DNA of 64,000 nucleotides, taken from positions 142,001 through 206,000 of the forward strand of contig NC_087380.1 in NCBI RefSeq assembly GCF_963675165.1. The letters run 5' to 3'. The position numbers and the translations under genes are program-made. Positions 1 to 64,000 of this stretch are shown piece after piece (within the stretch, counting starts at the first letter, position 1; each line of letters begins with the position of its first letter). A model generated the notes under the pieces. That model was not told the origin of the DNA. It did no database searches and saw only the letters and a list, made by a program, of their open reading frames with translations. Origin of the DNA: Halichondria panicea (taxonomy: Eukaryota; Porifera; Demospongiae; Suberitida; Halichondriidae).

Positions 1-253
1 ACATGTACTGCTGAGCTGGTAGCCTCCGTAGATGTGGGTGTGACTGTGGGTGTGGTTTGGACAGGTCCTGGCCAGTTCACCAGCTCTGATACAATGGCTA
101 GTCTGACAGCAGAGGCTAGCTCTCACGCTAGTCAACTGATGGTGGGCAGTGCTGCTCAGAGTGGAGACTACACGTGTACAGTTACTCTGGACTCTGCATC
201 TAACCTTCGAACAGAGAGCAATCCAGTCACTCAAGTGCGACCTATCAGTGTTG
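1..253 (+). CDS. Gene 1 exon: C-terminal part of an Ig-like domain
   Basis: Reading frame 1 from the window edge. It shows the Ig core Trp (VVWTGPG) and the F-strand pattern SGDYTCTV. It ends in phase 1 before gtgagt at 254. The position matches the third Ig after the CCPs in genes 2 and 3, but the sequence is clearly different from theirs. Confidence 0.8.
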
Positions 254-3200
254 GTGAGTTGGTGGACACTGTACATGCAGTGCATTGTTGACCCCTCCCC
301 TCCTTGTGTAGTGGGTGCCCCCTCCTCTCCTGTGGTGACCTCAGTACCACTAACAAACTCCATTGCCTTCTCCTGGACCCAAGATGATCAGAGTGATGTT
401 GTAGTGACTTATGGTATCGTGTTTGAGTATAATGGATCATGTTCTGTGACGACTCCACCAATGTCAGTTTCTGGATTCTTCATAACAACGATAAATCCCA
501 CCGACCTGTTCAGTTTCAACAACTATCGACTAACTGTCACAGCTGTTAACCCAGTTGGATCCAATACAACAGTTGTCATAGTTACCACTCTTCCCAAGGG
601 TGAGACACTGCTATTAACCTTTGCCCCTCTTACCCCCCCCCCCACACACATTCTCTTACCCCCACAGTTCCTTGTAAGACACAATAGTCTTTGCCCCTTT
701 TACCCCGTATACTCCTACCCCACAGCTCCTAGTGGACCTGTACTGAACCTTGTGGCTAATTCCTTCAACTCTACCTCAGTCACCATTACTTGGGACAGAG
801 TGTCTTGTGTACAGAGAAACAGTGACATCACTGGCTATCAGATTAGCTATGATGGAGACTCTGTCAATGTCCCTGGAACTGACATGAGGGAGTTCACTGC
901 ATCTGGTCTCATTCCAAGAACCCAGTACACATTCCTAGTCACCCCTCTCAGTAATAGTGGCATGGGAACTCAAGTGGCCAGTGTTGTCAGGGAGACAAGT
1001 CCAGCAGAAGGTGAGCCATGATATGGTTGATGTGTTGTTACTACCTCCATCATTATATAGAGCTGTCTCTGTTCCTGGGTGGCCAGTTTCTGAGCAACCA
1101 TGCTGTAGTGACCCCCTCTGACATTGGGGAGACCAACAATGCCCTCCTCTGTCTGACACCATTCTCTGATTGCTGTGACAGCTCCAATGGACTGGCAGGA
1201 AATTGGTTCTTCCCCAGTGGGCCTGCAGTACCAGGGAATGGATTCGGTCTGTCTTTCTACAGTGACCGTGGTCCCAGCTTAGTGAGGCTAAACCGCGTAG
1301 CAGACAATATTGACTCTGGAGTGTATCGCTGTGAGCTACTGTCAGCAGTGTGTGTGTCTGTGAGCCTCCATGTTGGTCTCTACCCTCTTGATGAAGGTGA
1401 GTGTGCACTAATAACAAGCTCTGTGTTCCATTCCTTCCTCACAGGCACTCCCACCATTCCTGGGGGGATACAGTTCAATAGATCTGCCCTCACTCTGACG
1501 TGTGTGTCTAATGGTGGTCCAGCTAGTGAGGTGATGTGGACCAGGAATGGAGCTATAGATACTGTCTCTACTGGATACACTCTCAAACAAACTGTCACCA
1601 ACACAGCCACTGCTACCTATGAGAATGTCCTGACTGCTACTACCATTGCTGATCTTGTGGGGACCTTCACCTGTACAGTCAGTAACAGCAGAGGAACCTC
1701 CAACACTGTCAGCTTCTCCTTCAATGGTGTGTGTGTGCGTGTGTGCGTGCGTGATTATTTATACTTGTACACTGCAGGTATTGACATTGATGGTGATGAG
1801 GGTCTGGTGGTGGGCAGTGATGCTGCTCTGAGGTGTGTGAGTGTGTTTCCTGCTACCATGATCCAATGGATCAACAATGCTGGAGTTGAGGTTGCCATGA
1901 CTACAACAGGATTGACCCTTGACCTCCCCTTCACCCCAGTCACTGACACTCTCCACAACTCAGAGTTCACTTGTCGAGTAAGTAGATCCCCAAGCAATGG
2001 AGGAACTGGAGAACTCAGTACCACACTCACTGTGACTGGTGAGGCCTAGTACACTGTCTCCTGTTCATTATTCTAGTGTGTGTGTGTACAGTGCCTGTGA
2101 GTGTCCTCAGTGTGTCCATCACCTCCCCCTCTGCTGTGGTGGCTGGTAGTGACTACACCTTCAGATGTGAGGTCACTAAGGTCATACTAGGACTCGCTAA
2201 CACACCCACTGCTGTGTGGGTGGCCTCTGATGGACAACAGATCACCACAGGGGGTAATGTCATCATCACTAACCCCTCTACTGGAGTGACAGAGCTTAGC
2301 TTCACTGGCATCAGAACAGACCAAGCTGATCCGTATATATGTAGAGGAACACTCACTTCACCTGCTCTGATGGTTGCTAGGGAGACAACAGACTCAGTCT
2401 CTGTTAGTGTACAGCGTAAGTGTGTCATGTTGTGTGTTGTGTTGTGCTTTATTTAGTTCATGTGTTGTCTCTACAGTTCCTCCACCTACTGTGATTCTGA
2501 CCACACCCACATCACCACTAACTGCCGGTACATCCCAGGAGCTCACTTGTTCTGTTACCGTGGATACAGCCGTTAACACGGTTGTTGTTGTGAGTGTTAT
2601 TCTGGAGAGGATCAGAGGATCAGAGGTCGTTTCCATAACAACTGTGACCCTGAATGAGAAGACCTCCAGCACTCCAGTGACCCTGACAGTGAACACTATG
2701 GATACAGGCTACACATGTAGAGCCATGTACATGACCACCTCCGGAGTCACGAGTCCCTCAGCAGAGGACACTCAAGCCATCACTATCACGAGTATGTTGT
2801 TGTACTAGCTCTCACTGTAGTGTACAATACCCCCCACAGTCCCCCCACCCCCTGTGGTGACCATCAGTGTGTCTGGTGACTCTGTGGCAGGCTCCTCCCT
2901 CTCTCTCCTCTGTACTGCCACGCCCCCTATCCCATTAGTGACTCCGCCCACTGTGTCCTGGGTACAACAAGACCTCGCTGATATCGTTACTCCAGTCACC
3001 TCTGACCCCTCAGCTAGCGTTAATCTGACCTTTAACCCCCTGAGAACCAGTCGTGGCGGTGTGTATGTGTGTGTAGCAGACTACAACATTCCTGACGCTG
3101 ACCTCCCTGACCTCTCTAACAATGCATCCACCATTGTCAGTGTGCAAAGTAGGTCTCTGTCTCATTCCAATGTATCTTATTATTGATTCCTATTCCACAG

Positions 3201-4518
3201 TCCCGAGACCTGATGCCAGGATCACCTTTGACCCCATGATGGATAACTACACTGTTGGCCTGTCCCTGACCCTGGGTTGTGTGGTCACTCTATCATCAGC
3301 TATTGATACTCTGGTGAACCTTGACCCCATCTGGCGGAGAGAGGAGGTCGTACTGACCACTGGAGACCAACTCACTGTGGGGGACTTCCCTATGACTAGT
3401 GATGACCAGGTGTACACTAGCTTGTTGGAGTTCCAGCCATTAACAAGAGACTTTATTGGCAATGACACCTTGTATGAGTGTGAGGCCAGTGTAGTGCCTC
3501 AGAGTGATACCTTCATCACTGGAACCATCACCAACACATCCACCACACTCACTGTGGGAGGTGAGGGCTGAGGCTGTGGTCTGTACATTGTACAATTACC
3601 TGTGTATGTGTTATTGTGTGGGAGGTGAGGGCTGTAGGGTTAGGGTCTATACAGCTCTGTGTATGTGTATTCTGTACAGTGATAATGTATTAAGTGAAAT
3701 TTTGCGTAGTGGTTCACTCTTAATAGTTACTCTTACATATAATTCTAAACCCTTATTGTACAGTGGCTGACTTTTCTGCCTCGATCAGCTCTGACTCCAC
3801 TGTGCTAGCTGGCTCTGAGCACACTCTAGTGTGTCAAGGAGTGAGAGGAGATGACCAGGCTGGTGGTACCACACTGGAAGTAGAGTGGTTCAATCCTGAT
3901 GGTGCCCTCATAACTGGAGGGACTAGTGATGTCATGATAACAGGAGTCACTGACATCACTACTAATGCTACCCTCATGAGCTCTCTGATCTTCCCCAGTC
4001 TCCAGACATCTCAAGCTGGTCCCTACACGTGTAGAGTCAACCACACTATACCTGACACCACCATCACTGATCAGAGCATCCTGAGCTCATCAGTGGTCAC
4101 TGTGCAGAGTAAGCCCCTCTCATTAGCCCTGTGTGTGTGTGTGACCCCCCCTCCAGTCAATACCCCTCAAGTGATGATCAGTGCTAGTCGGTCTGCCACA
4201 CTGTACGAGGGAACTACTGGTCAGGTCCTACGCTGTGTGGTTACCCCTGACAACACTGGAGTGAACACAACCACTAGTGTGACACGAGATATAACTGGAG
4301 GTGTTGACAGAGACGCGACTAGTGACACTGTCAGTGATGATGTGATTATTGTGGAGGAGGCCATTCAAGTGCTGAGTCTCAGTGACACTGGGACCTACAC
4401 ATGCTCTGCTACTCTGAACTCTGAACCCAACAATATGTACATTATGTCAGCCACCAATACAGACACTCTGAGCATAACTGTGGAGGGTACGTTAGTCGTG
4501 TGTGTGTGTGCGTGTGTG

Positions 4519-4554
<36 letters not shown>

Positions 4555-7500
4555 CGTGCGTGCGTGTAGTGCGTGCGTGTGTGTGTATGGTTCTATCTGC
4601 TTGACTGTGCTGTAATGTCCCTCCCTGCAGTCCTCCCAGACCCTGTTGTGGAGATATCACCCAGTAGTCTCCTACCAGTGCTGGCTGGGTCCTCCCTCGA
4701 CCTCACCTGCTCAGTCTCAGTGGAGGACCTTCTCTCTGTGGAGCCACTCATACAGTGGACACTGTCTAACCAGTCACTATCTGGGGTACTCAATGGCCGC
4801 ACCAACACACTGACCTTTGACCCCCTCCTCACAACCAACGCCACTCAGTACACATGTACTGCCACTATCAACATACCTGCAGTGGACATCACTAGTACTG
4901 GCAGCAACTCTATAGCCCTCACAGTGGACAGTAAGCAGTGTCATAGCCTCACTGTCCTTTATCCTACCCCCCACAGTCCCCCCTCCCACTGTGAGTGTGT
5001 CCTCACCCACCCCCGTCTACCATGGCACTAACCACACCCTCTCCTGTAACGCTGGCTATGACACTAGTGTAGTGACGACTGCTGTGACTCTGGACTACTC
5101 CTGGACTGGACCCAACCTCATAGCCTCCAGTGATAGTGCTGCTCTCACACTCTCACCAGTGGACCTACCAGCACAGAGCAGCGGAGACTACACTTGCACT
5201 GTCAGCGTTATCCCAGCAGGCTCAACCTTCATCAACCCTGCCACAGACTTTGATACTTACACCCTCACTGTACTAGGTGAGTGAGTGGGCGTTAGTGAAG
5301 ACTTCATACGATATGATTCAGTTTCGTACAATACAGTAGGTAGCAGTTGTTAGTGATTTTGTTTATTGCATGTACTAATTTTAGCAAATTTTTGCGAATT
5401 TGTAATTAACGCTAAATTAAGTATAGTCCGTGCTAATACATTTTGAATCTCATTAAAAACATTTCTTTTTTAATGAGAATGTACTTTTGAGAGTATGGCC
5501 CTTTTTTCACCAGAGAAAAATCTACTTGTATGTCTATAATAGTGATGCTTTACTTCCTCCCCCCCCCCTCTCCCTCAGCTGCTCCCCCTCCTGAGGTGTT
5601 GACTGGTGTGCCTGTGAGGGAGGAGCGTTGTGGACAAGTGTCCTCCATCACCTGTACTGCATCTGTCATTGATAACTTTGTAGCCACACCCACCTTCATG
5701 TGGAGGGGGCCAGGTGGAGACATTGTGGACTCTGACAACATTCTCAACTTGCCCTCTGTGATGACTGGGGGAGAGTACACTTGTATGGCTTGTGTGAATG
5801 TACCACAAGTCAATATCATCAATCTCTGTACCAACTCAACCATCACCATACAGGACACCAGTGAGTTACTTGTTAGCCATTGACAGGACTATTGTTAGGG
5901 AGGGTGGTCCCTCCTATAGAGCTAGGACTATTGTTAGGGAGGGTGGTCCCTCCTATAGAGCTAGGACTATTGTTAGGGAGGGTGGTCCCTCCTATAGAGC
6001 TAGGACTATTGTTAGGGAGGGTGGTCCCTCCTATAGAGCTAGGCCTATTGTTAGGGAGGGTGGTCCCTCCTATAGAGCTAGGACTATTGTTAGGGAGGGT
6101 GGTCCCTCCTATAGAGCTAGTGTTCCAGCTGTTGCATTGATACCTCCCTCCTCTCATATACAGCCCCCCAGCCAGTGAGTGGTGTGGTGTGTTCCTCCCT
6201 CTCTCCCTCCACTCTGAGTGTGAGCTGGTCCCCTCCAACTGACCCTGTCCTCAGTTATCAGGTGGAGGTCAAAGAATACAGTATAGTGGCTGTAGGGAAC
6301 ATAGTCAGTCTCTCCACTCCATTTGACCGCCAGAACGTTATCACCAATACCACTGTGGAGGGTCTAGGTGAGTACTAGAGGGATTGCTGTGTTACATGTG
6401 TATTATATTTTATAAGCTGTATTTGAATCGGCTCTGTAACTAGAGTTCTGGTGATTCAATTTCAACAATTTTACGATTTTTCTGAAAGTTTAGAAGGAGC
6501 TCCCTCAGATGGTATGCTCAAATCTCAAATTTGAAACAGGCCATAATTCCCTATTTTCAGGTCGTAGTATTTATCGAAAAAAGGCTTCATAATTATCATC
6601 TGAAGGCTTATATACTTACAAAATTAACATTATTGGACCAACGTAAAGTTAAGTTATGGTACATATTATATATTGTGTGTGTGTACTGTGTTTACATGTT
6701 TCGAGCTACGTACAGTATTGTTATTCTACCATGCTGACTGTACTTCCCCTCTCTTCCCTATAGCTGCCTCTACCCGGTACCTGGTCAGTGTTCAGGCAGT
6801 CAGTGGTGTCGTCTGTAGTGATTTCACTGAGATAGACTGCTACACTGAGCAAACACAGCCCCCAGTGGTTACCGGGGTAACTGTGGACAGAATTAACGGG
6901 ACTGCCATGAATGTCAGCTGGACTCCACTCAACAAAGCTCAGTCCAATGGCTTCATTCAGAGTTACATAGTGACATACTCTGTTGTCACGACAACACCCA
7001 ATCGTAAGAGACAAGGCTCTCAACAAGTGACAGTATCCAGTGACAAGAGTAGCACTATCATTGGAGGACTGGACCCGGGGTCAGAGTACAGTGTTGGTGT
7101 GAACGCTAGTGGAGCAGGGGGAACTTCACAATGTGAATTGTCCTGTTATTATTATTATAATTAATTATCTTCCTTCGTTCCTATAGCCTCTCCTCCGATA
7201 GTGTCCCCCACTATAACCTCAGTGTTGTTCCAGCTCAGACTCACCAACATCAACAACTGTCCTGACTGGGTCGTGAGTGCAATAATTATAACATTGTGTC
7301 GCTTAGAACCAGTCTCCATAATTACAGGAACAACCAGACAGGCTAACTGCTGTCACTGAAGCACTGGTGTCTGAGATCCAGGGTCTTTGTCAGTGTTCCT
7401 TTGCTCTTAGTGATATCCAAGAGCCATCCTTCCAATGCTTCCCAGAGTCAAACCAAGCTGTAACCTTCCGTGCCATCACTACCTCCAGTTTCATTGGTGA

Positions 7501-8420
7501 CATATCACGCTGGATTGCTGACGATGGTTTACTGAGAGTACAGAGGATTTTTATACGAGTGGACAAGACTTGTCAGGTGGAGATATCGAACTTTGAGGAC
7601 ACCGAGTGTAACACTATACCTGTGGGTAGTGAGTCATCAGCTGCAGTGATTGGTGGAGTGGTGGGGGTGGTCATTGTCCTTATCGTTGCTGTTACCATTA
7701 CAGTCATAGTGATTGCTGTGCTGGTGTTCAAGAGCAGGAGAGAGAAACTGACTGTCCACAGAACAACAAAGTGAGTGTATCCTTATTTATTCATTCAGTC
7801 TCTTTTGGAATAGTTCAATGGTATTGTAGACTATAGCTGCAACAAATGTACAATATTGTACGAAGCTTAATTCATGTTGTTTGGTACAATATCATACGTT
7901 CACTGTCTTGCCCCCCTCCCCTCCCTGCAGACGTGCTCTACCCCCCGTGTCCCTACAGGGTGTGGTCAGTACTGGTGAGATAAAACCATACGAGATGATA
8001 GAAATGGGTAATCATGAATATGAGGAAGTATCCAAGTTCCAACAACCGAGTGGTGGGGAGTATGAGATGGTGGGAGGCTCATCAGCTGGCTATGAGAACA
8101 GGGCTGCTATAATGGCTACCAAACAAACATCACCGCCCCCTCCACCCTCTCCACAACCTTCACAACCCTCACAACAGGAGACAGTGGATGCCGGGGGTGA
8201 CTTTGAGGTCACTGAGTGCATTGCCTACAGTACGACCACCCATGGCCCCCCTCCCCCCAGCACTACCACCCATGGCCCCCCTCCCCCCAGCACTACCACC
8301 CATGGCCCCCCTCCTCCTCCCAGCACTACCACCCATGGCCCCCCTCCTCCTCCCAGCACTACCACCCACGGCCCCCCTCCCCCCAGCACTACCAGTGGAG
8401 ACCCACTGTATGCTAACTGA
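1..8420 (+). CDS. Gene 1: Ig/FN3 single-pass receptor with ITAM-like tail (5' partial)
   Basis: Predicted type I cell-surface receptor; the 5' part lies outside the window. Exons by GT-AG and phase: 1-253, 312-599, 726-1010, 1061-1396, 1445-1726, 1778-2038, 2092-2415, 2477-2791, 2840-3148, 3201-3560, 3764-4108, 4157-4486, 4631-4930, 4977-5276, 5579-5860, 6164-6367, 6764-7132, 7187-7272, 7328-7770, 7931-8420. The joined frame is open for 2053 codons and ends in TGA at 8418-8420. Domain order: part of an Ig, two FN3s, twelve Ig-like domains, two FN3s, a Cys-containing membrane-proximal domain, a transmembrane helix and a Tyr/Pro-rich tail. Introns are phase 1 up to the membrane-proximal region, then phase 0 and phase 2. 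By alignment to gene 2, the missing part should be signal peptide, V-like Ig, CCPs and two Igs. Unlike genes 2 and 3, an intron (600-725) separates the first two FN3s. Ligand unknown; adhesion or allorecognition is inference. Confidence 0.85.
312..1010 (+). CDS. Gene 1 exons: two fibronectin type III domains
   Basis: Two phase 1-1 exons (312-599 and 726-1010), each one FN3 domain, with proline-rich starts (GAPSSPVV; APSGPVLNL), a core Trp (SWTQ; TWDRV) and a C-terminal Tyr motif. In genes 2 and 3 the same pair is one 600-bp exon without the intervening intron. The intron at 600-725 is C/T-rich and holds a second acceptor-like cag near 667. Confidence 0.82.
1061..5860 (+). CDS. Gene 1 exons: run of twelve Ig-like domains
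   Basis: Twelve phase 1-1 exons, one Ig-like domain each: 1061, 1445, 1778, 2092, 2477, 2840, 3201, 3764, 4157, 4631, 4977 and 5579 (ends given in the gene entry). The first is the CC type: Cys, then CC (SDCCDS), a Trp (NWFFPSG), and VYRC. The others show a B-strand Cys, a core Trp where present (AVWVASDG, PIWRREE) and F-strand Y-x-C patterns such as YTCRV and YTCTA. Many begin with VPPP- or VLPDPVV-like linkers. Exons 3201-4486 are close to gene 2 and strongly different from gene 3. Confidence 0.83.
3561..3763 (+). other. Gene 1 intron with a duplicated donor-like segment
   Basis: The donor context (gtgggaggtgagggctg) recurs about 70 bp downstream inside the intron, near 3620. Using the second donor would cross an in-frame TGA right after the first one, so it should not extend the coding exon. 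Confidence 0.5.
4498..4566 (+). repeat. (TG)n microsatellite in a gene 1 intron
   Basis: TG-rich tract with CG interruptions between the exons ending at 4486 and starting at 4631. The equivalent gene 2 intron has an expanded TGTGCG tract at 18541-18630. Confidence 0.85.
5277..5578 (+). other. Gene 1 intron, AT-rich, no gene seen
   Basis: AT-rich intron with a C-rich polypyrimidine stretch before the acceptor at 5578. Homologous introns are 19331-20104 (with an insertion) and 33642-33939. Confidence 0.6.
5886..6119 (+). repeat. 39-bp intronic minisatellite, 6 copies (gene 1)
   Basis: Six head-to-tail 39-bp units beginning ggactattgttagggaggg and ending in atagagcta; one unit has gg-c-ctattg instead of gg-a-ctattg. 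It sits between the Ig exon ending at 5860 and the FN3 exon at 6164. Each unit contains a GGGA/TCCC imperfect palindrome. Copy number is 6, 2, 2 and 1 in genes 1-4. As 39 is divisible by 3, it creates spurious open frames on both strands. Confidence 0.93.
6164..7132 (+). CDS. Gene 1 exons: membrane-proximal FN3 pair
   Basis: Exon 6164-6367 encodes the first half of an FN3 (LSVSWSPPTDPVLSYQVEVK). Exon 6764-7132 encodes its second half (RYLVSVQAVSG) plus a complete second FN3 (MNVSWTPL through GLDPGSEYSVGV). The split inside the first FN3 is conserved in genes 2-4. The donor at 7133 is gtgaat here and gtgagt in the paralogues. Confidence 0.82.
6368..6763 (+). other. Gene 1 intron inside an FN3 domain, no gene seen
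   Basis: AT-rich 396-bp intron. Homologous introns are 20739-21150, 34572-34988 and 49592-50488; the last has acquired nested elements. Confidence 0.6.
7187..7770 (+). CDS. Gene 1 exons: membrane-proximal Cys domain and transmembrane helix
   Basis: Exon 7187-7272 ends in phase 0, and exon 7328-7770 ends in phase 2. The domain carries Cys motifs (NNCPDWV, CQCSFAL, QCFPES, DKTCQV, TECNT) and the segment AVTFRAI followed by a helix-like stretch ending in RVDKTCQV. It vaguely resembles a SEA-type stalk domain, but I cannot assign it. The transmembrane helix (about 7644-7728; VIGGVVGVVIVLIVAVTITV onward) is followed by the stop-transfer cluster KSRREK. This copy belongs to variant A, shared with gene 4. 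Confidence 0.8.
7931..8420 (+). CDS. Gene 1 exon: cytoplasmic tail with ITAM-like tyrosines and HGPPPP repeats
   Basis: The exon completes a Lys codon split with the previous exon (phase 2). The tail has PYEMI, six residues, then YEEV (YxxI-x6-YxxV), followed by EYEMV, GYENR (Grb2-type YxN), IAYST and the C-terminal PLYAN. Between them is a polyproline stretch and about five copies of a STTTHGPPPP(P) repeat, a candidate SH3/WW/EVH1 ligand. Src-family/Syk-like signalling is inferred from motif pattern only. Confidence 0.82.
8229..8393 (+). repeat. Coding VNTR: STTTHGPPPP repeat in the gene 1 tail
   Basis: About five tandem 30-33-bp units encoding STTTHGPPPP(P). The equivalent stretches are 13 codons in gene 2 (22607-22645) and 33 codons in gene 3 (36474-36572), and short in gene 4. 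Length differences are whole codons, so the frame is kept. Confidence 0.85.
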
Positions 8421-8641: not shown

Positions 8642-8647
8642 AATAAA
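8642..8647 (+). promoter_or_regulatory. Poly(A) signal AATAAA, gene 1
   Basis: Canonical AATAAA about 220 bp after the stop, followed by a stretch (cagcccctcgagttcacgcc) that is conserved after the equivalent hexamers of genes 2 and 3. Confidence 0.6.
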
Positions 8648-8787: not shown

Positions 8788-8925
8788 CTCATGCATGCAT
8801 GCACTATGCAGATATGCAGAACTGGCATGGACTGAAACTATTAAGCTCAGTGGAAGAGTACTGAGTCAACCACTGTGTGGACTGATCCTGTGTGGACTGA
8901 TCCTGAGGTGTATATGTATGCAGCC

Positions 8926-8998
8926 ATGGCCATGAGTCTTGGTGGTGCAGTACTGTTGATGCTGATAGCTACTGGAGCAATGGTCTCTGGACAGCAAA
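8926..8998 (+). CDS. Gene 2 exon 1: signal peptide
   Basis: Starts MAMSLGGAVLLMLIATGAMV, a short hydrophobic leader with likely cleavage near VSG/QQ. It ends in phase 1 at gtatga. The inner ATG at 8932 (ATGAGTCTTGG) is the start conserved in genes 3 and 5; gene 4 has ATGAGTATTGG. Confidence 0.8.
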
Positions 8999-22977: not shown

Positions 22978-23108
22978 CTCATGCATGCATACACTATGCA
23001 GAACTGGCATGGACTGAAACTATTAAGGAAGAGTACTGAGTCAATTTCACTGTGTGGACTGATCCTGTGTGGACTGATCCTGAGGTGTATATGTACTATA
23101 AAGCAGCC

Positions 23109-23175
23109 ATGAGTCTTGGTGGTACAGTACTGTTGATGCTGATAGCTACTGGAGCAATGGTCTCTGGACAGCCAA
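23109..23175 (+). CDS. Gene 3 exon 1: signal peptide
   Basis: MSLGGTVLLMLIATGAMVSG followed by QP, phase 1 donor gtatga. The start at ATGAGTCTTGG is conserved with genes 2 and 5; the upstream in-frame start at 23091 would add MYYKAA. Confidence 0.78.
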
Positions 23176-36599: not shown

Positions 36600-36708
36600 C
36601 ACTAATGGACTTTGTCACTAACTCATTCATACTCCCAACATGATTGTAGAATTTTTCAGTTTTTTTGCGGATATAGTTTATAGATAGCATTTTCATAGCC
36701 TGTCATTA

Positions 36709-37901: not shown

Positions 37902-37974
37902 ATGGCCATGAGTATTGGTGGTGCAGTACTGATGATGCTGATAGCTACTGGAGCAATGGTCTCTGGACAGCAAA
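37902..37974 (+). CDS. Gene 4 exon 1: signal peptide
   Basis: MAMSIGGAVLMMLIATGAMV followed by SGQQ; phase 1 donor gtatga. A second in-frame ATG lies at 37908. Confidence 0.78.
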
Positions 37975-47869: not shown

Positions 47870-47921
<52 letters not shown>

Positions 47922-48684
47922 TTTTTTTTTACTTAATGCCTATCGCTAATTCTAAGAACCAACATTTGAGGTTAATGCTTGTTGTGTGCTTGCCACCTAG
48001 AAGAACCACATAGACCCATCCCCATTATCAGATACTATCACCACAAAACCTGGCTCAGACAATACAGGCCTGTACTTATAAATTAAGCCTCCCTTGCAAG
48101 GTCATATTTAGTTCACACAAAGCACACAGCCATGCAAGCTAAGTTGAAGTATTACAGCAGCCAATATCAAGTCTAAGATAAGTTCTATACTTTATGTCAG
48201 CATTACCTCAAATATGAATATAGCTTATAGTACAATATCAGCATGGCCCCAAGTGAATAGCTTACAAAAATTATTCAGTATACTAGTTGTTTTGAATGCA
48301 ACAGATGAATGGGGAGGGTTGGTGCACCGTTAAAGACTCTTTAACCCATCATTCTCGGCTCTCAAGGCCGGGCATCTGTTTGCTTTTTTTGTTCCTGTTT
48401 GATTTCTTTCCGTTCTATATGTGTGTTTCACACATACACTTATTTACCTTTAGTGACACATATTATGACAGACATATACATGTGTGAATACCCATTTGCA
48501 ACCTAGAAGGAGGTAAACAAACCATGCTAAGTAATTATAGACATGAAGGCTGGATTCCAACCATGTATATATATTTTTATTAGAAGCTTTCCGTTTGATT
48601 GGGAGGGTGTGCGACTGACAATCCCTGCCCACCCCAATACCTTTTGTATACACTTCAATCAAACACACACACACACACACACAT

Positions 48685-48751
<67 letters not shown>

Positions 48752-48762
48752 CACACACACAA

Positions 48763-48847
<85 letters not shown>

Positions 48848-52960: not shown

Positions 52961-53027
52961 ATGAGTCTTGGTGGTGTAGTACTGATGATGCTGATAGCTA
53001 CTGGAGCAATGGCCTCTGGACAGCAAA
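52961..53027 (+). CDS. Gene 5 exon 1: signal peptide
   Basis: MSLGGVVLMMLIATGAMASG then QQ, phase 1 donor gtatga. In-frame upstream ATGs at 52922 and 52931 exist; the conserved ATGAGTCTTGG start is chosen. Confidence 0.75.
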
Positions 53028-56000
53028 GTATGAGCACTGGACTGGCTATATCTATTATAGTATTGTTCTATTCTTATACTATGCATCACAAACCCGTAAA
53101 CGCCTGAATAGTAAACACCACTAAAATAATCTATGGTGTCGCCTCTATATTCATATTCGGGTTTGTGGCGTTTTAATTTAGACGTTTGCAGTATGTTTTT
53201 GATGGTATAAACTTTCGCTGATTTAAGCAGTACCGCTAACATTTATACCCACGAATATTAATATCACTGCATACATGCGCCAAAAAGCTGCATGCTGGTA
53301 ATAAAAGGGTCTCTCCACGAAAGTTTATACCCTCGAAATATAATAATGTAGTCAGATCTGTAATTAAAATTTGCTTCAGTTGATATTGATATTGATATTG
53401 GTATTGGTATATGCAGTTTGGTTTACCCTGAGATCAACAAACTATGTCATCACTACTAACAATACTGAGATCCTCATTACTGACATTGGAGAGGATGCTG
53501 TGGGTGGTCTCCCTTCTCTCACTTGTAACACTGACCTCACTGCCTGCTGTAGAAGTAATGCTGACAACAATGGTAATGGAGGACTAGGACAGTGGACGTA
53601 TCCTGATGGGAGTGTGTTACTGCAAAATGGTGGCTCAATGAATGCTGGACAGCAGTTCTACTTTGTGAGGAATGCACCTCAGGTCATTGTGCTAAACCGT
53701 AGAGAGGCTAACAACTCCCTCACTCCAACCGGGTCCTACTGTTGTACTGTACCAACTTCACTGGGAGAGATGACCTTCTGTGCTAACCTGGGTGAGTGCA
53801 GGGATTGCGGTTTGGGTGGGTAAAGGACAACGTGTATGTACACCGTTGTATCTGTGCCTACTGTATCAACTCATGCATGGGGTTGAGCACCATCTACTAC
53901 AACATTTAGTCCACGCAGCACTTTATATAATGTGTGCTTCCTCTCCAGTTGTGTGCCTCTCCCTCCCTTCCCTCAACAATGGGTGGATATCCTACACTGA
54001 CTCAACACTGGGCCTGAACACTGTGGCCACCCACTCTTGTGAGCCTGGCTATAAACTGACTGGTAGTACCTCAATGAGGACATGTACTGTCAGTGGATGG
54101 GATGGAACTGCACTTACTTGTACAGGTGAGAGTGTTGAGTTGGCTCTATCTGCAGCAATATGACATCAGTGTGTGTTTTTTCTCCAGCTATCTGTAATGA
54201 CTTGACTACTCCAACCAATGGCAATGGAATGATAGCCTATAATATGGGGACCATGGATGCTAGACCATTGAACACTGTGGCTACCTACACACTGAGCTGT
54301 GACACTGGATACATGCTGACTGGTGATATAACCAGGACTTGTGTATATGGAACCTGGAGTGGTAGTGATTCAACTTGTGAATGTGAGTCCACTCATGATC
54401 AGTGTGGATATATATAATGAAGGCAACATTAATTATATATTTCACTAATGTGTTCTATTGTAGTGATCTGTCCAAACCTCCCTGTACCAACCAATGGAGC
54501 AGTGGTGTACAGTGACACCACCATCCCTAGAGCTGTTGGCTCCACGGCTACCTACACCTGTAACACTGGATACCAGATGACTGAACTGATGGTGAGGACG
54601 TGTAGTGTCAGTGGATGGAGCACTGGAGGCGACCCTGTCTGTACTGGTGAGGGGGATGAGTGCATTTGTGCTGACAGTGTGTTGATTGTAAGACCCCCCA
54701 CAGCTATATGTGATGAGCTCATCCTCTCCAATGGAGTAATTAGTTACAGTCCAGCTACCTCCCCCATACTAGAGAGAACCACGGCTACACACAGCTGTAC
54801 TACCACTGGGTACCAACTGTCCTCATCCACTACCACTAGGACCTGTCAGTCTGACAGAACGTGGAGTGGAATACCCATCATTTGTGAAGGTATTTCTCTA
54901 GCTACGCATGTACAGGTATTATTACCCCCACAGCTGTTGACTGTGGACCTCTGAGTATTACCAATGGAGCAGTGGACACATCCTCTGGAACCACCTTCAT
55001 GATGACTGCTACCTACACCTGTAACACTGGCTACATTCTGACTGGTGGATCTATGACCAGAACATGTCCGGCCAATATGATGTGGAGTGGCAGTGAACCA
55101 ACTTGTGATGGTGAGATAATTACAAGATGATCCCCATATCTGACCCCCCCCCCCCTCCACAGTCCTGTGTCCTCGTGAGCCTCTCTCCAATGGAATGGTG
55201 ACCTACTCACCTTCTGATGACCCTCCACAACCCAGAGCAGTGGCCACTTATTCTTGTGACACTGGCTATGAACTGAGTGGTGCTAGTACGAGGAATTGTG
55301 TGGCTGTCAGTGGATGGAGTACATCTCTACCTGTTTGCAATCGTTAGTTGAACCATAGATAGAGTAAAAGAGGGATTGGATGGTACTTCACGGAAATGAT
55401 TCATTTCAATGAAGTCTACGTAATAGCTCTGGGACCATCCTTATATCTCTTCATAACTCCCGGGAAACTTATTGTGTCCACATCTCAGAGCTATACCCAT
55501 TACTAAATCACATGCCCCCTGATTAGGTACCAATTGGAAATGAAGAAAATATAATCTCGATTGTCGTGAATTAGCTAGTGCCATGCTAAATGGCCGGTGT
55601 TTAGCCCTTGTGTTAACTTGATTAAAACCGCAGAGATACACAGATGGCACTTCTTCGAGGATACTTCCGTTTCCATTTCCAATCCCTCTTCTATACTATA
55701 TCTGGTTGAACTGACACATGTTTTAATTGTTTATGAATTCATATAATAGTTGTTGATTGCAATGACCTCGCTAACCCGGACAATGGAGCAGTGGACACAT
55801 CCTCTGGAACCACCTTCATGATGACTGCTACCTACACCTGTAACACTGGATACAACATTGCTGGATCAGACACTCGGACTTGTGGGGCCACTGCATTGTG
55901 GACTCCAGATTCCCCCACCTGTGCACGTGAGTAACATGACTGACTGTGTACACTGTATCCACTGTGTTCATATTCCACAGCTGTTGACTGTGGTTCCCTC

Positions 56001-59000
56001 ACTGTTCCTATTAACGGGCAAGTTAGTACATCCTCTGGAACCACCTTCATGAACACAGCCACCTACACCTGTAACACTGGCTACACTCTCAATGGAGTAT
56101 TAACTAGAACCTGTCAAGCTAATGGAAACTGGGACCTAACCGTACCTACCTGTGATCGTGAGTGTTTCGTGTACATACAGCTGTGTATGTAAATCTAACT
56201 TTTCTTACACAGCTGTTGACTGTGGCCCCCTCTCTGCCCCCTTCAATGGAGCAGTGAACACATCCTCTGGAACTACCTTCATGATGACTGCTACCTACAC
56301 CTGTAACACATACAATGGATCCACAACCAGGACTTGTGGGGCTACTGGAATCTGGAGTGGCAGTGAACCAACATGTGCCAGTAAGTAAAATTATCCGTGT
56401 TCATTATTAGTGCAAGTCGTCTTGTAAATGGTTATAATGTATAGCTACCGTATACTGTATATGATTGTACGAAATAATTAAATCCAAGTTGTGCTTAATT
56501 TAGACGTTTGCAGTATTATGTACATGGACTAATGATTTGTTGAAATCTTATTTCAGTTGATAATGATATGATTTTTATTGGTCCAGTCTACCTGACTCTG
56601 GGATCAACCTTATATAATACCAATAACACTGAGATACTCATCACTGACATTGGAGAGGATGCTGCTGGTGGTCTCCCATATCTCACCTGTCACACTGACC
56701 TCACCACCTGCTGTAGAAATACTGACAACGGTGGTAATGGAGGACTAGGACAGTGGACGTTTCCTGATGGGAGTGTGATACTGCATAATGGTGGCTCAAT
56801 GAGTGCTGGAGATCAGTTCTACATTCTAAGGGGGGCACCTCAGGTCGTCAGACTGGCTCGTAGACAGGGCAACAACCCCCTCACTCCAATCGGGTCCTAC
56901 TGTTGTACTGTACCAACTACTGGAGGAGACATGACCCTCTGTGCTAACCTGGGTGAGTGTAGAGATTGTTTGGGTGGGTAAAGGACAACGTGCACTGTTG
57001 TATTGGTGCCTACTATAGTTACCCAGTTTGACCTACAGTTTACAGTTCCCAAGTGCTTGCAATAATTTACATGTATAGAGTCAATCAATTCACGCCAATA
57101 TTAATATCAGAATTAAGTACTATTAGGCAGTCGCATATTGATTGGTTTGATCGAATATAGATACAATCAAGAGTAGATAAGAGTATCTACTCTTGATATG
57201 TAGATCTATATAGTTTCAGTGAAAGCCCTTATGCAGCTCTAATTCCGGCAAGGAAGGTTTCTATAGGATTTCCTTCCATGCAGCAATTAAGTTGTTATCT
57301 ATAGCCCTTCCTTGCAGCCATTATCTGTGAGGGGACCACTTCTGTTTTGCAACTTTACTGTAGATGCAATTTCCATTGATTGATACGGGTGTGAATATAT
57401 ATATTGACTGCTGACTCTACATCTGTATACAGCCCAGAATAAATTGTGCACACCTAGTCTGTTGCATGATTTGTGTTCTCCAGTTCTGTGCTCCACCCTC
57501 CCACTGATGAATGGAGTGATCTCCTACTCTGACCCAACACTGGGTGAGAACACTGTGGCCACTCACACCTGTGAGGCTGGGTCTGCCCTCACCACTGACG
57601 TCAGTACCAGGACCTGTGGAGTGACTAGTAATAGTCTGGGTGGTGTGGGTGACTGGTCCGGGTCACCTCTGGTGTGTGCAGGTATGGGACCTCCTCACAC
57701 ATACAGTACCAACCATTCTCATTATCTCACAGGGGGTGCCTGTCCAGACCCCACTGATCTACAAAATGGAGTGATCAGCTACAGCACTGTATCAGCTAAT
57801 GGCTACAGACGAGTTACTACTGTGGCTACCTACTTTAGAATTTGTACTGGTGTTGGCTTGGAAACTGGCGGTACCTCAGTGAGGACGTGTAGTGGTGGTG
57901 TTTGGATTGGCAGTGAACAACCTTGTATAGGTGAGAGTGTTGAATTGGCTTTATTATTATTGTGGCAATCTGACATTAATCTCTTGTGTTTGTGTTATTT
58001 ATTCTAGCTTCCAATACCACCTGCTCTCACCACTTGACTGCTCCAACCAATGGAATGATTGGCTATAATACGGAAACCATGGACCCTAGACCAGTGAACA
58101 CCGTGGCTACCTACACTTGTATCACTGGATACACTGTGACTGGCAGCAACACCAGGACTTGTGGGAGTGATGGAATGTGGAGTGGGTCTAAACTCACTTG
58201 TACAAGTACGTTATCATCACTTGTTCATTACATACACTATTGCTGTGGCCTTTGTCTCTCCTCCAGTTGTCACCTGTCCAACCCTCACTAACCGTAATGG
58301 AGCAGTCAACGTACCTAGTAACAACTTTGGAAGCACTGCAACCTACACCTGTAACACTGGCTACACTATCAATGGAGACACCACTAGGATGTGTCAAGCT
58401 GATGGAACCTGGAGTGGCAGTGAACCAACTTGTCAGCGTGAGTCCATTCAGTGTGGATATAATGAAAGCAACATTATTACTATTATTTTGTTGCAGTGAT
58501 CTGTCCAAACCTCCCTGTACCAACCAATGGAGCAGTGATATACAGTGACACCACCATCCCCAGAGCTGTGGACTCCATGGCTACCTACACCTGTACCACT
58601 GGCTACCAGGTGACTGGATTGATGATGAGGGTGTGTACTGTCAGTGGATGGAGCACTGGAGATGACCCTGTCTGTACTGGTGAGGGGGATGTGTGTATTT
58701 GTGCTGACAGTGTGTTAATTGTAAGACCCCCCACAGCCATCTGTCCTGGCCTCACCCTCACCAATGGAGTGATTGGTTACACTCCAGCTACTTCCCCTAT
58801 ACTAGAGGGAACCACGGCTACACACAGCTGTACTACCACTGGGTACCAACTGTCCTCATCCACTAGTACCACTAAGACCTGTCAGTCTGACAGAATGTGG
58901 AGTGGAGAACTCCTCACTTGTAACCGTATGTGATTAAAATTGATGTTCCCAATAATATTATGATGATTTCCCTCCCATTCAGCTGTCCCCTGTGGCAACC

Positions 59001-62000
59001 CTCCTACTGTTATCAATAGTGGCAGGACTTTCACTGGTACCACATTCGGAGCAATGGCTACCTACTCCTGCAACACTGGGTATCAAAGGTCAGGATCAGC
59101 CACGATAACTTGTCAGGCTAATGGGAGCTGGAGTGCAGCACCAGTGTGTACAGGTAATTTAAGTCTTACATACATGCAGTCATATACCTATTAGGTACAG
59201 ATAGACTGATAATTAGTTCAACTTGTACAGGTTTGGTATTTCTCAATAGGCTGTATGTAAAATGTAAATGCTCCTAACAGTGGTTGATTGTGGCTCATTG
59301 AGTGCTCCTACCAATGGAGGAGTCATGACAACAGGAACCACCTACCAAAGTACTGCTACCTACAGCTGTGACAATGGCTACACACGTAGTGGAGATCAGA
59401 CCAGGGTTTGTCAGGCTAGTGGAGACTGGAATGGGTCAGAACCTGCTTGTAATCGTGAGTACACTGTCTATAACCAGAAAGCTTGGCCATGTTTTGTTGT
59501 TTAGTTGTTGACTGTGGAGCTCTAACTGTTACCAATGGAACAGTGGACACATCCTCTGGAACCACCTTCATGATGACTGCTACCTACACCTGTAACAATG
59601 GCTACACTCTGACTGGAGACACCACCAGAATGTGTGGGGCTGGTGGGAGCTGGACACTCATGGAGCCTACTTGTGTTGGTATGTACAGTAGATGGTTATC
59701 TTGTCCTCATGAATGCAGAATCTGTCCCTCAGTTGTTGACTGTGGCCCCCTCACTGACCCCTCCAATGGTATGGCCGTTAATACACCCACTACCACATTT
59801 GAGAGCACTGCTACCTACTCTTGTAACACTGGCTACACTCTGACTGGAAATATGACCAGAACTTGTCAGGCTAAGGGAGACTGGAGTGGGTCTGCTCCAA
59901 CATGTGATAGTACGTTATCATCTCTTGTTCTCTGTTTTGATTGCCTCTTCTTCCCTGCAGTTGTCACCTGTCCAGCTCTCTCTGACCCCAACAATGGAAT
60001 GGTTGATGTGCCTAACAACACCTTCATGAGCAATGCCACCTATGCCTGTGTCCATGGCCACAATCTGACTGGAGGCAGCACCACCAGGACTTGTGGGAGT
60101 GATGGAGTGTGGAGTGGCAGTGATCCAACGTGTACTCGTAAGTTAAATTATGTAATGATGATCTGAATCCATTCTCATATACACAATGTAGCTGTGGATT
60201 GTGGCTCTCTCTCTGACCCCTCCAATGGAGCAGTGGACACATCCTCTGGAACCACCTTCATGAGGACTGCTACCTACACCTGTAACACTGGGTACACTCT
60301 GACTGGCAGCAACACCAGGACTTGTCAAGCTGATACAGACTGGAGTGGCAGTGAACCAGCTTGTGATAGTACGTAATGAACGTTATCATATCTTGTTCAT
60401 TGTGTACATTGTTGCATTGCGGCCTCTTCTTCCCTGCAGTTGTCACCTGTCCAGCTCTCTCTGACCCCACCAATGGAATGGTTGATGTGCCTAGCAACAA
60501 CTTTGGGAGCATTGCCACCTACACTTGTAACCGTGGCCACAATCTGACTGGAGATGCCACTAGGACTTGTGAGGCTACTGGAATGTGGAGTGGCAGTGTA
60601 GCTTGTAATCGTAAGTTTAAACAACCTCGCAATCTCTTGTTTTTAAGAACCGTTCTTTCCTTTAGTTATTAACTGTGGCGACCTCACTGGCCCGGACAAT
60701 GGCTTGGTCACTATACGTATTGGAAACTTTGGTAGCAATGCTTCCTACACGTGTGAAACTGGCTACATGCTGAATGGAGATATGACCAGAATGTGTCAGG
60801 ATAATGGAGACTGGAGTGGGTCTGCTCCAACTTGTGATAGTACGTTAAATTATATTGCTCTATACTTTATGATCTCATTCTTATACACTGTAGCTGTTGA
60901 CTGTAGTGACCTCACTGACCCCACTGATGGAGCAGTGAACACATCCTCTGGAACCACTTTTAATATGAATGCCACTTACAGCTGTAACACTGGCTACAAT
61001 CTAAATGGAACAAACGCTAGGACTTGTCAGGCGGATAGAATGTGGAGTGGCAATGAACCAGCTTGTGATAGTACGTTATCATCTCTTGTTCATTGCGTGT
61101 ACACTGTTTTAATTGCCTCTTCTTCCCTGCAGTTGTCACCTGTCCAGCTCTCTCTGACCCTAATAATGGAATGGTTGATGTGCCCAACAACAACTTTGGG
61201 ACCGTTGCTAACTACACGTGTAACACTGGCTACATGCTGACTGGAGATGTAATTAGAGTTTGTGAGGTTAATGGAGACTGGAGCGGGACTGCTCCAACTT
61301 GTGATAGTATGTTATCATCTCTTGTTCATTGTGTACACTGATCATGGTCCTATTCCTTCCTGCAGTTGTCACCTGTCCAACTCTCACTGACCCCACCAAT
61401 GGAACGGTTGATGTACCTAGCAACAACTTTGAAAGTACTGCCACCTACGCCTGTGACACTGGATACAATCTAACTGGAGGCAGCAGCACCAGGACTTGTG
61501 GGAGTGATGGAGTGTGGAGTGGCAGTGATCCAACATGTACTCGTAAGTTAAATTATGTAATGATAATCTGAATCCATGCTCATTCACAATGTAGCTGTGG
61601 ATTGTGGCTCTCTCTCTGACCCCTCCAATGGAGCAGTGGACACATCCTCTGGAACCACCTTCATGAGGACTGCTACCTACACCTGTAACACTGGGTACAC
61701 TCTGACTGGAAGCAACACTAGGACTTGTCAAGCTGATACAGACTGGAGTGGCAGTGAACCTGCTTGTGATAGTACGTAATGAACGTTATCATCTCTTGTT
61801 CATTGTGTACACTGTTGCATTGCGGCCTCTTCTTCCCTGCAGTTGTCACCTGTCCAGCCCTCTCTGACCCCACCAATGGAATGGTTGATGTGCCTAGCAA
61901 CAACTTTGGGAGCATTGCCACCTACACTTGTAACCGTGGCCACAATCTGACTGGAGATGCCACTAGGACTTGTGAGGCTACTGGAATGTGGAGTGGCAGT

Positions 62001-64000
62001 GTAGCTTGTAATCGTAAGTTTAAACAACCTCACAATCTCTTGTTTTTAAGAACCGTTTTTTCCTTTAGTTATTAACTGTGGCGACCTCACTGGCCCGGAC
62101 AATGGCTTGGTTACTATACGTATTGGAAACTTTGGTAGCAATGCTTCCTACACGTGTGAAACTGGCTACATGCTGAATGGAGATATGACCAGAATGTGTC
62201 AGGATAGTGGAGACTGGAGTGGGTCTGCTCCAACTTGTGATAGTACGTTAAATTATATTGCTCTATACTTTATGATCTCATTCTTATACACTGTAGCTGT
62301 TGACTGTGGTGACCTCACTGACCCCACTGATGGAGTAGTGAACACATCCTCTGGAACCACTTTTAATATGAATGCTACTTACAGCTGTAACACTGGCTAC
62401 AATCTGAATGGAACAAACACTAGGACTTGTCAGGCGGATAGAATGTGGAGTGGCAATGAACCAGCTTGTGATAGTACGTTATCATCTCTTGTTCATTGTG
62501 TACAGTGTTTTAATTGCCTCTTCTTCCCTGCAGTTGTCACCTGCTCAGCCCTCTCTGACCCCACCAATGGAATGGTCAGTGTGCCTAACAACAACTTTGG
62601 TACCGTTGCTAACTACACCTGTAACACTGGCTACATGCTGACTGGAGATGTAATTAGAGTTTGTGAGGTTAATGGAGACTGGAGTGGGACTGCTCCAACT
62701 TGTGATAGTACGTTATCATCTCTTGTTCATTGTGTACACTGATGGTCCTCTTCCTTCCTGCAGTTGTCACCTGTCCAACTCTCACTGACCCCACCAATGG
62801 AATAGTTGATGTACCTAGCAACAACCTTGAAAGTACTGCCACCTACGCCTGTGACACTGGATACAATCTGACTGGAGGCAGCAGCATCAGGACTTGTGGG
62901 AGTGATGGAGTGTGGAGTGGCAGTGATCCGACATGTACTTGTAAGTTAAATTAGATAATGATCTTATGAGTCCATTCTCATTCACAATGTAGCTGTTGAC
63001 TGTGGTTCCCTGTACGCCCCCTCCAATGGAGCAGTGGACACATCCTCTGGAACCACCTTCATGATGACTGCTACCTACACCTGTAACACTGGATACACTC
63101 TGACTGGCAGTAACACCAGGACTTGTGGGGCAAATGGAGGCTGGACTCCTAATCCACCCATTTGTGATCGTATGTTGCAAAAGTCTATATTACATCTAAC
63201 ATTTAATTACCACCTTTACCCTCTAAGCTGTTGACTGTGGCCCCCTCACCGACCCCTCCAATGGTATGGTTGATGTAACTACTACCACCTTTGGGAGCAC
63301 TGCTACCTACACCTGTAACACTGGCTACATGCTGACTGGAGACACTACTAGGACTTGTGGGGCTGGTGGACAGTGGAGCTCTAGTGCACCTACTTGTAAT
63401 CGTAAGCTTGTATGGTCTTATGTCCTACTACTGTACCATTACTCAATCCTTATTCTAAATATTCGTACACCTCTTGTGCATAATAGTTTTAATTTTTGGA
63501 TTAATACATGCATGCTCTCAATGCGAAAAATACAAAAATTTCCACACATTAATACGCTATACAATCCTCCTGATTCCCCAGCTGTTGACTGTGGAGCCCC
63601 TCCCACCATTTCTGATGGTAGTAGGACACTAGCTGGTACAACATTTGGAGAGACGACCACCTACACCTGCACCACTAGTGGGTTCAGTATCTCTGGATCA
63701 GCCACCATAACTTGTCAGGCTAATGGGAGCTGGGAACCTGAGCCAGCCTGTACTATGGATCGTGAGTTATTGTCTGAGTGTGTTAGGCTGGTCCAGTTAC
63801 TCTGTTCTGTGCAGCCATTGATTGTGGGACACCTCCCTCTGTCTCTAATGGCTCTCCTGGAGCACCCTCACCTGACACAATGCTCAATGGAGTGGTGACC
63901 TACACTTGTGTCAGTGGGTATGAGGTCTCCACTGGAGTCACCACAGCAATGGCTACCTGTATGGCTAATAGGATGTGGGAGCCTGTACCAACTTGTCAAC
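52961..64000 (+). CDS. Gene 5: receptor with two V-like Igs and at least 36 CCPs (3' partial)
   Basis: At least 2418 residues. Exons: 52961-53027, 53417-53791, 53949-54125, 54188-54382, 54464-54646, 54704-54889, 54934-55110, 55163-55342, 55750-55926, 55981-56157, 56213-56380, 56587-56952, 57484-57681, 57733-57930, 58008-58205, 58267-58437, 58497-58679, 58737-58925, 58983-59153, 59281-59454, 59505-59678, 59733-59909, 59961-60137, 60192-60368, 60440-60610, 60666-60839, 60894-61070, 61133-61306, 61366-61542, 61595-61771, 61843-62013, 62069-62242, 62297-62473, 62534-62707, 62764-62940, 62993-63169, 63228-63401, 63582-63761, 63815-64000. All internal exons are phase 1-1. The second V-like exon has no signal exon before it, so I read one gene with an internal duplication; two fused neighbouring genes is the alternative. 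By homology the missing 3' end should hold FN3s, transmembrane helix and tail. Confidence 0.8.
53028..53416 (+). other. Gene 5 intron 1, no gene seen
   Basis: 389 bp, AT-rich, unlike intron 1 of genes 2-4 except near the acceptor. It contains tttagacgtttgcagtat, which recurs before the second V-like exon (about 56500). Confidence 0.6.
53417..53791 (+). CDS. Gene 5 exon 2: first CC-type (V-like) Ig domain
   Basis: 125 codons, the longest copy: TNNTEI, SLTCNTDLTACCRS, LGQWTYPDG, FYFVRNAPQVIVLNRR, TGSYCCTVPTS and EMTFCANLG. Confidence 0.8.
53949..56380 (+). CDS. Gene 5 exons 3-11: CCPs 1-9
   Basis: Nine phase 1-1 CCP exons. CCPs 1-6 correspond in order to CCPs of genes 2/3 with one missing; CCP 9 is unusually short (56 codons; YTCNTYNGSTTRTCG lacks the usual GYxxxG loop). 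The 57-bp intron 54647-54703 is open and in frame. Confidence 0.85.
55347..55712. mobile_element. About 350-bp MITE with 8-bp target duplication in gene 5 intron
   Basis: Element 55355-55704 with imperfect TIRs (agagtaaaagagggattgga against tccaatccctcttctatact) flanked by gttgaacc and gttgaact. Genes 2 and 3 carry a single gttgaact at this intron position. An 8-bp duplication is compatible with hAT-type elements. The rest of the 407-bp intron has no gene. Confidence 0.75.
56587..56952 (+). CDS. Gene 5 exon 12: second, internal V-like Ig domain
   Basis: 122 codons, phase 1-1, with acceptor tccag at 56586: YLTLGSTLYNTNNTEI, LTCHTDLTTCCRN, LGQWTFPDG, FYILRGAPQVVRLARR, GSYCCTVPTT and DMTLCANLG. 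Located between CCP 9 and CCP 10. Confidence 0.78.
56953..57483 (+). other. Gene 5 intron, 531 bp, with hairpins
   Basis: AT-rich, no gene. A perfect 14-bp stem with 4-nt loop lies at 57166-57197 (atcaagagtagata / tatctactcttgat). A pair gcaaggaagg / ccttccttgc lies at about 57250 and 57306. Confidence 0.6.
57484..64000 (+). CDS. Gene 5 exons 13-39: CCPs 10-36 (continues past the window)
   Basis: Twenty-seven phase 1-1 CCP exons of 171-198 bp. CCPs 10-15 resemble the first CCPs of genes 2/3 (VLCSTLPLMNGVISYSDPTL). CCPs 16-34 share the DCGxLxxPxNGxVxTxxxT pattern. CCPs 35-36 are types A and B of the gene 4 array. CCP 24 has DCSDL where its paralogue CCP 30 has DCGDL. The last exon reaches the window end with its final Cys just inside. 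Confidence 0.85.
60192..63169 (+). repeat. Higher-order repeat: six-CCP unit of about 1.4 kb, two copies plus a partial
   Basis: CCPs 21-26 (starts 60192, 60440, 60666, 60894, 61133, 61366) recur as CCPs 27-32 (starts 61595, 61843, 62069, 62297, 62534, 62764) at 1398-1403 bp. CCP 33 (62993) begins a third unit and CCP 20 resembles CCP 26. Introns are conserved between copies. Confidence 0.9.

Follow-up and report, generated by a model that had tools for sequence, protein, structure and literature searches.

The five giant genes in a 64,000-nucleotide stretch of the Halichondria panicea genome (hereafter the window; C4:142001-206000, C4 being contig NC_087380.1) belong to a receptor array of very large size that lies mostly on one chromosome. 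We read them, with a probability of about 0.65, as members of one large gene family that encodes receptors for contact or recognition, in which a shared N-terminal module would bind ligand and a tyrosine-rich tail, a phosphatase, or a seven-transmembrane (7TM) part would give the output. The anatomy, copy number, common module, tail motifs, phosphatase signatures, and selection pattern are the established part of this picture.

Results

Gene layout

The assembly comprises 131.5 Mb in 39 contigs, and C4, with 7,813,905 bases, makes up 5.9% of it. Genes A to E run head to tail on the + strand at a spacing of 14-15 kb. Their models come from a purpose-written exon-intron gene finder trained on the region and have 31 to 50 predicted exons per gene, some tiny ones of which are probably spurious. 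The median intron in the region is 61 bp, and most introns are in phase 1 (54 of 63 in a model spanning part of A and B and 34 of 39 in that of C). Gene A is modelled at C4:138699-150420 (31 exons, 2630 aa); its start lies 3301 bp before window base 1, and its 3′ part occupies 1..8420. Gene B is complete at 8914..22672 (our model, 8926-22672, has 38 exons and 2990 aa), C lies at 23091..36599 (model 23109-36599, 40 exons, 3003 aa), D at 37902..52011 (39 exons, 1977 aa), and the 5′ part of E, which begins with a signal peptide, at 52961..64000; the E model of 2699 aa ends ahead of its membrane part. Our gene-finder approach is supported by the exact match of NCBI protein P0001 (3002 aa, named "mucin-2-like isoform X4") to gene B, with 2992 of its 3002 residues placed in 33 exact segments at 8914-22669. 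P0008 (NCBI isoform X2, 2003 aa) matches the first part of gene C and ends at 32227, before the membrane part. A 39-bp minisatellite was coding in our own models, but because P0001 and another NCBI protein, P0002, splice round it, we treat it as intronic. The cluster is larger than the sequence-only reading had drawn it: A begins 3.3 kb ahead of the window, E extends about 4 kb beyond its end, and the array as a whole goes much further, with three neighbouring genes of the A-D type (G1, G2, and G8) and one of the E type (G9) outside the window.

Domain architecture

Genes A to D are predicted from their sequence to encode receptors that cross the membrane once, carry CCP, Ig, and FN3 repeats, and end in a tyrosine/proline-rich tail. 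Ectodomains of thousands of residues and a single transmembrane helix had been proposed for them, and our models agree on both points: the proteins measure 1977-3003 aa, each with one hydrophobic helix as read from the sequence by eye. A Cys-rich module at the N-terminus ("N module") is common to all five genes. It lies at 9648..10013 in B, 24176..24535 in C, 39205..39570 in D, and, in two copies, at 53416..53790 and 56586..56951 in E; gene A has a second N-type module in mid ectodomain at 1061..1396 (tblastn, own model, custom HMMs). An exon encoding a SEA-like part, so labelled from its position and not from a family match, and the transmembrane helix was located by tblastn and our models at 7328..7771 in A, 35624..36064 in C, and 51086..51532 in D, and by P0001 mapping at 21786..22235 in B. 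The cytoplasmic tail follows at 7931..8420 in A, where it ends in DPLYAN-stop (tblastn, own model), at 22318..22672 in B (own model, P0001 mapping), and at 36185..36599 in C and 51648..52011 in D (own models).

Counted with HMMs built from the A-E proteins themselves, CCP domains number 4, 10, 10, 19, and 36 and Ig domains 11, 12, 13, 1, and 0 in A, B, C, D, and E, which bears out the large differences in domain number seen earlier. From the N-terminus, the order is N, 4 CCP, 2 Ig, FN3, N, 9 Ig, FN3, SEA-like in A; N, 10 CCP, 3 Ig, 2 FN3, N, 9 Ig, FN3, SEA-like in B, which C resembles with its 13 Ig; N, 19 CCP, a single Ig, FN3, SEA-like in D; and N, 9 CCP, N, 27 CCP in E. A Pfam scan found Sushi, Ig, and fn3 domains in P0001 (gene B) and P0002. 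The description of these proteins as receptors with Ig modules holds for the Ig domains deeper in P0001 and P0002, but the N-terminal domain has no Ig match.

What the N module is related to was searched in three ways. Pfam, queried with two N-module and two SEA-like copies, gave nothing up to E = 1 other than one sub-threshold match at 0.17; PDB sequences gave the N module no convincing match (best E 0.12); and hhalign comparison with the neighbouring Ig, FN3, CCP, and SEA-like profiles showed no similarity, with Ig below 1%. An Ig identity of the N module is therefore unsupported by any of these searches. One N-module slice that included a CCP edge matched CCP, as expected.

The Pfam results for P0001 and P0002 also led us to reject other identities. 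Mucin-2 is defined by VWD, C8, and CK domains, and their absence from both proteins speaks against the gel-forming mucin of the NCBI name. Neither protein has a kinase domain, and none of the PF07714 matches listed (129 of 1749 candidates scored) lies in the window. Sponge aggregation factors are built on Calx-beta domains; these are absent from P0001 and P0002, and we reject that identity for the two proteins.

Tyrosine tails

The tyrosine-rich tails noticed in A-D proved to be conserved. We aligned 26 of 36 tail matches (20 distant, 6 local). HEYEEV and proline runs are present in all 26, GEY(E/D)xx in 25, and the first YxxPhi in 24, and three YxxPhi motifs stand at fixed spacing in 23 of the 26 (I, M, V, or L allowed). 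This conservation holds between blocks about 1.7 Mb apart. We take the YEEV of the tail to resemble the preference of Src-family SH2 domains.

Gene E

Just past the window, at C4:206128-210146, lie exons whose homologues in P0006 make up its HRM, GAIN, and 7TM parts; Pfam finds HRM, GAIN, and 7tm_2 in that protein, and a 7tm_2 match lies at C4:208691. Because of these exons and this match, gene E is by homology an adhesion GPCR, having the N module and CCP in common with A-D but not their tail; its GPS motif was identified by eye, and its membrane part is read from the homologous exons. The sequence-only reading had counted five head-to-tail paralogues: five genes on the + strand are there, but E is not a fifth copy of the A-D kind. 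P0006 matches the G9 area over 2838 of its 3347 residues and may include exons from outside the stretch compared; identity between E and G9 is 94.7% across 11.4 kb. What E shares with other adhesion GPCRs is the exons with homology to HRM, GAIN, and 7TM parts; its ectodomain sets it apart, being made of two N modules and about 36 CCP, the same kind as in its single-pass neighbours.

The array on C4

At genome scale, the 150 N-module matches listed (150 of 298 candidates scored) fall on C4 (132), C1 (10), C14 (7), and C5 (1); they include pieces of one exon, and since one gene can hold two or more copies, the genes are fewer than the matches. C4 also holds 71 of the 87 matches to the SEA-like/transmembrane exon (SEA-TM) and all 36 tail matches, the latter in three blocks at 0.12-0.23, 0.85, and 1.88-2.19 Mb. 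With 150 of 361 candidates scored, 63 matches to the active-site part of tyrosine phosphatases (PTP) were listed, of which 54 lie on C4 and 9 on other contigs. Tandem copies are not independent, and this concentration is reported without a P value. As a contrast set, the tyrosine kinase matches listed (129 of 1749 PF07714 candidates scored) are spread over many contigs. No Calx-beta match on C4 was among those listed in the genome search. In protein searches limited by length and shared words, the N module was found in no other named species: one search gave nine matches out of nine in H. panicea, and in a second, matches from other or unnamed species covered no more than 34% of the query, in keeping with a match to its CCP part.

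Phosphatase relatives

The N module is also present on P0007, P0009, P0026, and P0028, all with a PF00102 phosphatase domain, and on the adhesion GPCR P0006; P0029 and P0030 carry PF00102 with a more distant module (34-35% identity). Since tyrosine-tail proteins (P0001/P0002), PF00102 proteins, and a 7tm_2 protein (P0006) all have it, one module feeds three outputs. N exons that adjoin PTP matches, at C4:459144 and C4:478651, correspond to P0009 and P0026, and we infer that the remaining C4 PTP matches are likewise receptor-type genes with the N module. The phosphatase type extends beyond C4, because P0028 sits on an 18.1 Mb contig. In P0007, two PTP domains stand behind a membrane helix, as in receptor tyrosine phosphatases, and the first has WPD and HCSAGxGR. 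Among the 42 of 54 C4 matches that were read, HCSAGxGR is intact in 42 and WPDHG in 41. What sets these proteins apart from known receptor tyrosine phosphatases is the number of active-site matches on one contig (at least 54), the stalk of N module and CCP, and, in P0007, an Ig domain (Pfam) that separates the membrane helix from the phosphatase. Within the window, P0001 (gene B) and also P0002 have no PTP domain in Pfam, the tails of A, C, and D reach a stop, from which we judge them to lack one as well, and no PTP match was among those listed (150 of 361 candidates scored).

Exon mosaics

Exon by exon, synonymous divergence between neighbouring genes shifts. B and C are near-identical at exons 13-19 (dS 0 to 0.04) and reach dS 0.21-1.65 at exons 21-28; between B and A, dS is 0.78 at exon 14, 1.25 at exon 16, and 1.58 at exon 21, with 0.24 at exon 19, and drops to 0.01-0.07 at exons 27-31. 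Because dS shifts in this way along neighbour pairs, the pattern points to exchange or conversion between neighbouring copies.

Selection

Our FUBAR-like test (own code; sites called at posterior >0.9) compared divergence between paralogues of one assembly, not alleles. The N-module set had 51 copies, 11 local and 40 distant; the distant ones were picked from the best-scoring stop-free matches, which biases their apparent intactness, and near-duplicates and lower-scoring copies were left out. In this set, omega was 0.80, and 26 of 139 columns were diversifying and 43 purifying; of the 116 well-filled columns, 24 were diversifying. Simulated data in which no site exceeded neutrality yielded 2, 0, 1, 0, 0, 1, 0, and 5 sites in 8 runs on one tree, and 0, 0, 2, 0, 0, 2, 4, and 2 on two trees mimicking a single recombination breakpoint. 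The two halves of the module, each on its own tree, retained 10 and 11 diversifying sites, and six subsamples of 24 copies gave 8-22. The sites cluster mildly (p = 0.017). With a median dS of 0.26, the set is not saturated, and because dN exceeds dS in just 14% of 1274 pairs, diversification is at sites and not module-wide.

The membrane and output parts behave differently. SEA-TM (23 copies) had omega 0.40, with no diversifying and 73 purifying sites out of 158; the tail (26 copies) omega 0.45, with 3 and 47 out of 120; and PTP (36 copies, after six with stops in the cut piece were dropped) omega 0.25, with 0 of 125 columns diversifying and 87 purifying. These sets come mostly from different genes, SEA-TM and tail from tail-bearing genes and the N module mostly from others, with six genes in all three. 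The last FN3 served as a control with too few copies (8 of 24 places found; omega 0.55, 2 sites). The outermost module appears to be changing under selection. Across 99 neighbour exon pairs, the median dN/dS was 0.51; exons 28, 29, and 33 showed dN > dS in several pairs at very low dS, and diversification may extend beyond the N module.

Discussion

Based on these findings, we propose a mechanism for the A-E family. The diversifying, membrane-distal N module would bind a ligand on another cell or particle, held out on a long stalk of CCP, Ig, and FN3 repeats whose copy number varies. Clustering of A-D type receptors would let a Src-type kinase phosphorylate the three YxxPhi motifs of the tail, which could then recruit SH2 proteins, while the proline runs could recruit SH3 or similar proteins; this takes the motifs in their usual role as kinase targets and SH2 docking sites. 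Sister genes with the N module would bear a tyrosine phosphatase or a 7TM part instead, and the response may be a balance of docking, erasing, and G-protein outputs. Ligand binding, phosphorylation, the opposition of tail and phosphatase, and a self/non-self purpose are what we infer from the anatomy. The contrast between a diversifying N module and constrained SEA-TM, tail, and PTP parts supports a recognition system. For the role in allorecognition or immunity first suggested for this locus, the recognition or immune type is upheld by the C4 concentration, N-module selection, mosaics, tail motifs, and phosphatase relatives.

It is possible, as a minority reading, that the array is a large set of pattern receptors with which a filter feeder sorts food, symbionts, and pathogens. 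High copy number together with diversification would suit such a set. In H. panicea, 62% of the annotated pattern receptors were found in only some samples, clustering by individual, and sushi- and Ig-domain genes were among the responders to LPS, although the sections on pattern receptors in the same paper do not name the A-E family (PMC8242945). 

The pattern-receptor reading also has against it that giant stalks and a phosphatase output belong more often to receptors for contact between cells. Microbial recognition fits about as well as allorecognition does.

Allorecognition itself, in which the array would be a sponge histocompatibility complex whose polymorphic N modules are compared on contact, with tail and phosphatase receptors deciding between fusion and rejection, we hold to be an attractive but somewhat unlikely hypothesis. 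It would account for the C4 array, the focus of selection on the N module, and the exon mosaics. The differences measured here, however, lie between paralogues and not alleles, and no Calx-beta match on C4 was among those listed; in an Amphimedon graft transcriptome, adhesion and aggregation-factor genes were reported as not significantly enriched (PMC5450542). The fullest form of the idea, a polymorphic self/non-self complex with one hypervariable module, three opposing outputs, and exon exchange in DNA and possibly RNA that constitutes the sponge allorecognition receptors, is unlikely as it stands. Sponges do tell self from non-self grafts (PMC5450542). To our knowledge, the allorecognition receptors of sponges have not been settled.

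Comparison with known systems bears on the same question. Within the open-access literature, the closest architecture we met is that of the Botryllus FcoR/fester co-receptors, which are described as type I proteins with an N-terminal variable domain, sushi and Ig domains, and Y-x-x-I/L/V tails, and form a multigene family whose gene content varies (PMC12065747). This likeness, which favours allorecognition, is one of architecture: P0001 and P0002 have the Sushi and Ig domains in Pfam and A-D type tails have the motifs, and no Botryllus protein was among the matches in searches limited by length and shared words. FcoR proteins differ in having 520-610 aa (PMC12065747) against about 2000-3000 aa in A-D with their FN3 and SEA-like parts, and in having an Ig variable domain where the H. 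panicea N module has no Ig match in Pfam or hhalign; the phosphatase and 7TM sisters are a further difference. The same paper reports ITAM and ITIM domains on candidate allorecognition genes (PMC12065747). The array resembles Hydractinia Alr in its clustered, diversified receptors. Alr receptors are small Ig-type proteins with a proven role in allorecognition, and we know of no CCP arrays in their genes. Sponge aggregation factors, also candidates for cell recognition, are Calx-beta-based, unlike the C4 array, for which no such match was among those listed.

That these are tissue adhesion or structural proteins with drifting copy number, the selection signal coming from recombination between copies, is quite unlikely: modular ectodomains and strong exon mosaicism would fit, but the two-tree, one-breakpoint simulation never exceeded 4 sites over its 8 runs, compared with 26 observed, Pfam finds no mucin domains in P0001 or P0002, and the tail is conserved across blocks about 1.7 Mb apart, with PTP signatures intact in the relatives read. 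Equally doubtful is that neighbours swap membrane and tail exons in RNA to give combinatorial receptors, a scheme that in-phase exons, most introns being in phase 1, would permit: in P0002, 25 segments from G1 (C4:107314-120654) are followed, after a skip of 16 kb, by the last four of G2 (C4:136659-138092), which links a G1 ectodomain to a G2 end, but the model is a prediction, exons this alike can cause short reads to be mis-mapped, and P0001 and P0008 each stay inside one gene. The P0002 join may reflect genuine splicing between genes or an error of annotation.

We return to the reading of A-E as a family of contact or recognition receptors. Titles and abstract openings on sponge allorecognition, receptor phosphatases, and H. 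panicea, mostly from open-access journals, do not describe the C4 array, and the passages searched on H. panicea phagocytosis proteomics and regeneration do not mention the A-E genes. Receptors with tyrosine tails, phosphatases, and GPCRs that share a recognition module within a single array would be an unusual design for an immune-type complex, and the C4 array is a real, strongly structured recognition-type receptor complex of an unusual kind. With a named chromosome, a variable module, and signalling partners in hand for a species that serves as a model of sponge symbiosis (PMC8242945), linkage and graft tests become direct, and the array is a good candidate for the basis of self/other discrimination in sponges.

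Repeats within and around the receptor genes

A 39-bp minisatellite recurs in the window at 5885-6120, 20411-20490 and 34246-34325 (6.1, 2.1 and 2.1 copies, respectively), lying after the last Ig exon and before the next FN3 exon. Its sequence is almost the same from gene to gene, and in gene B, one of the giant single-pass receptors, it is intronic as judged by the NCBI protein model P0001. In the stalk of G1, a neighbour of the same type outside the window, one exon (NC_087380.1, 109196-109597) holds about 12 near-identical Thr/Glu-rich repeats.

Gene D contains a 301-bp inverted repeat between its CCP and Ig exons (window 46293-47028); its arms are 99% identical, and it is perhaps a recent mobile element. 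Another inverted pair, of about 500 bp and 82% identity, flanks the 5' end of this gene (window 36705-37203 and 40546-41047).

As for the gene models, NCBI isoform X2 of gene C (window 23091-32227) stops short of the membrane part; the encoded protein may be soluble, or the annotation may break off there. The NCBI model P0002, which lies upstream of the window (NC_087380.1, 107314-138092), combines the ectodomain of one copy with exons that encode the membrane part and tail of the copy that follows it.

Tyrosine phosphatase and N-module matches

Among the matches listed, 54 tyrosine phosphatase active-site matches fall on NC_087380.1, mostly at 0.096-2.6 Mb, with some farther out, near 4.4 and 7.5 Mb. 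In the copies read on this contig, the phosphatase motif HCSAGxGR is kept in 42 of 42 and WPDHG in 41 of 42. A second, small array of the Cys-rich N-terminal module, comprising seven matches, one of them partial, lies on contig C14 (2940749-2955058). At 2.69-2.73 Mb and 2.92-2.93 Mb of NC_087380.1, kinase and N-module matches occur in pairs with identical or near-identical scores, possibly reflecting recent duplications or uncollapsed haplotypes.
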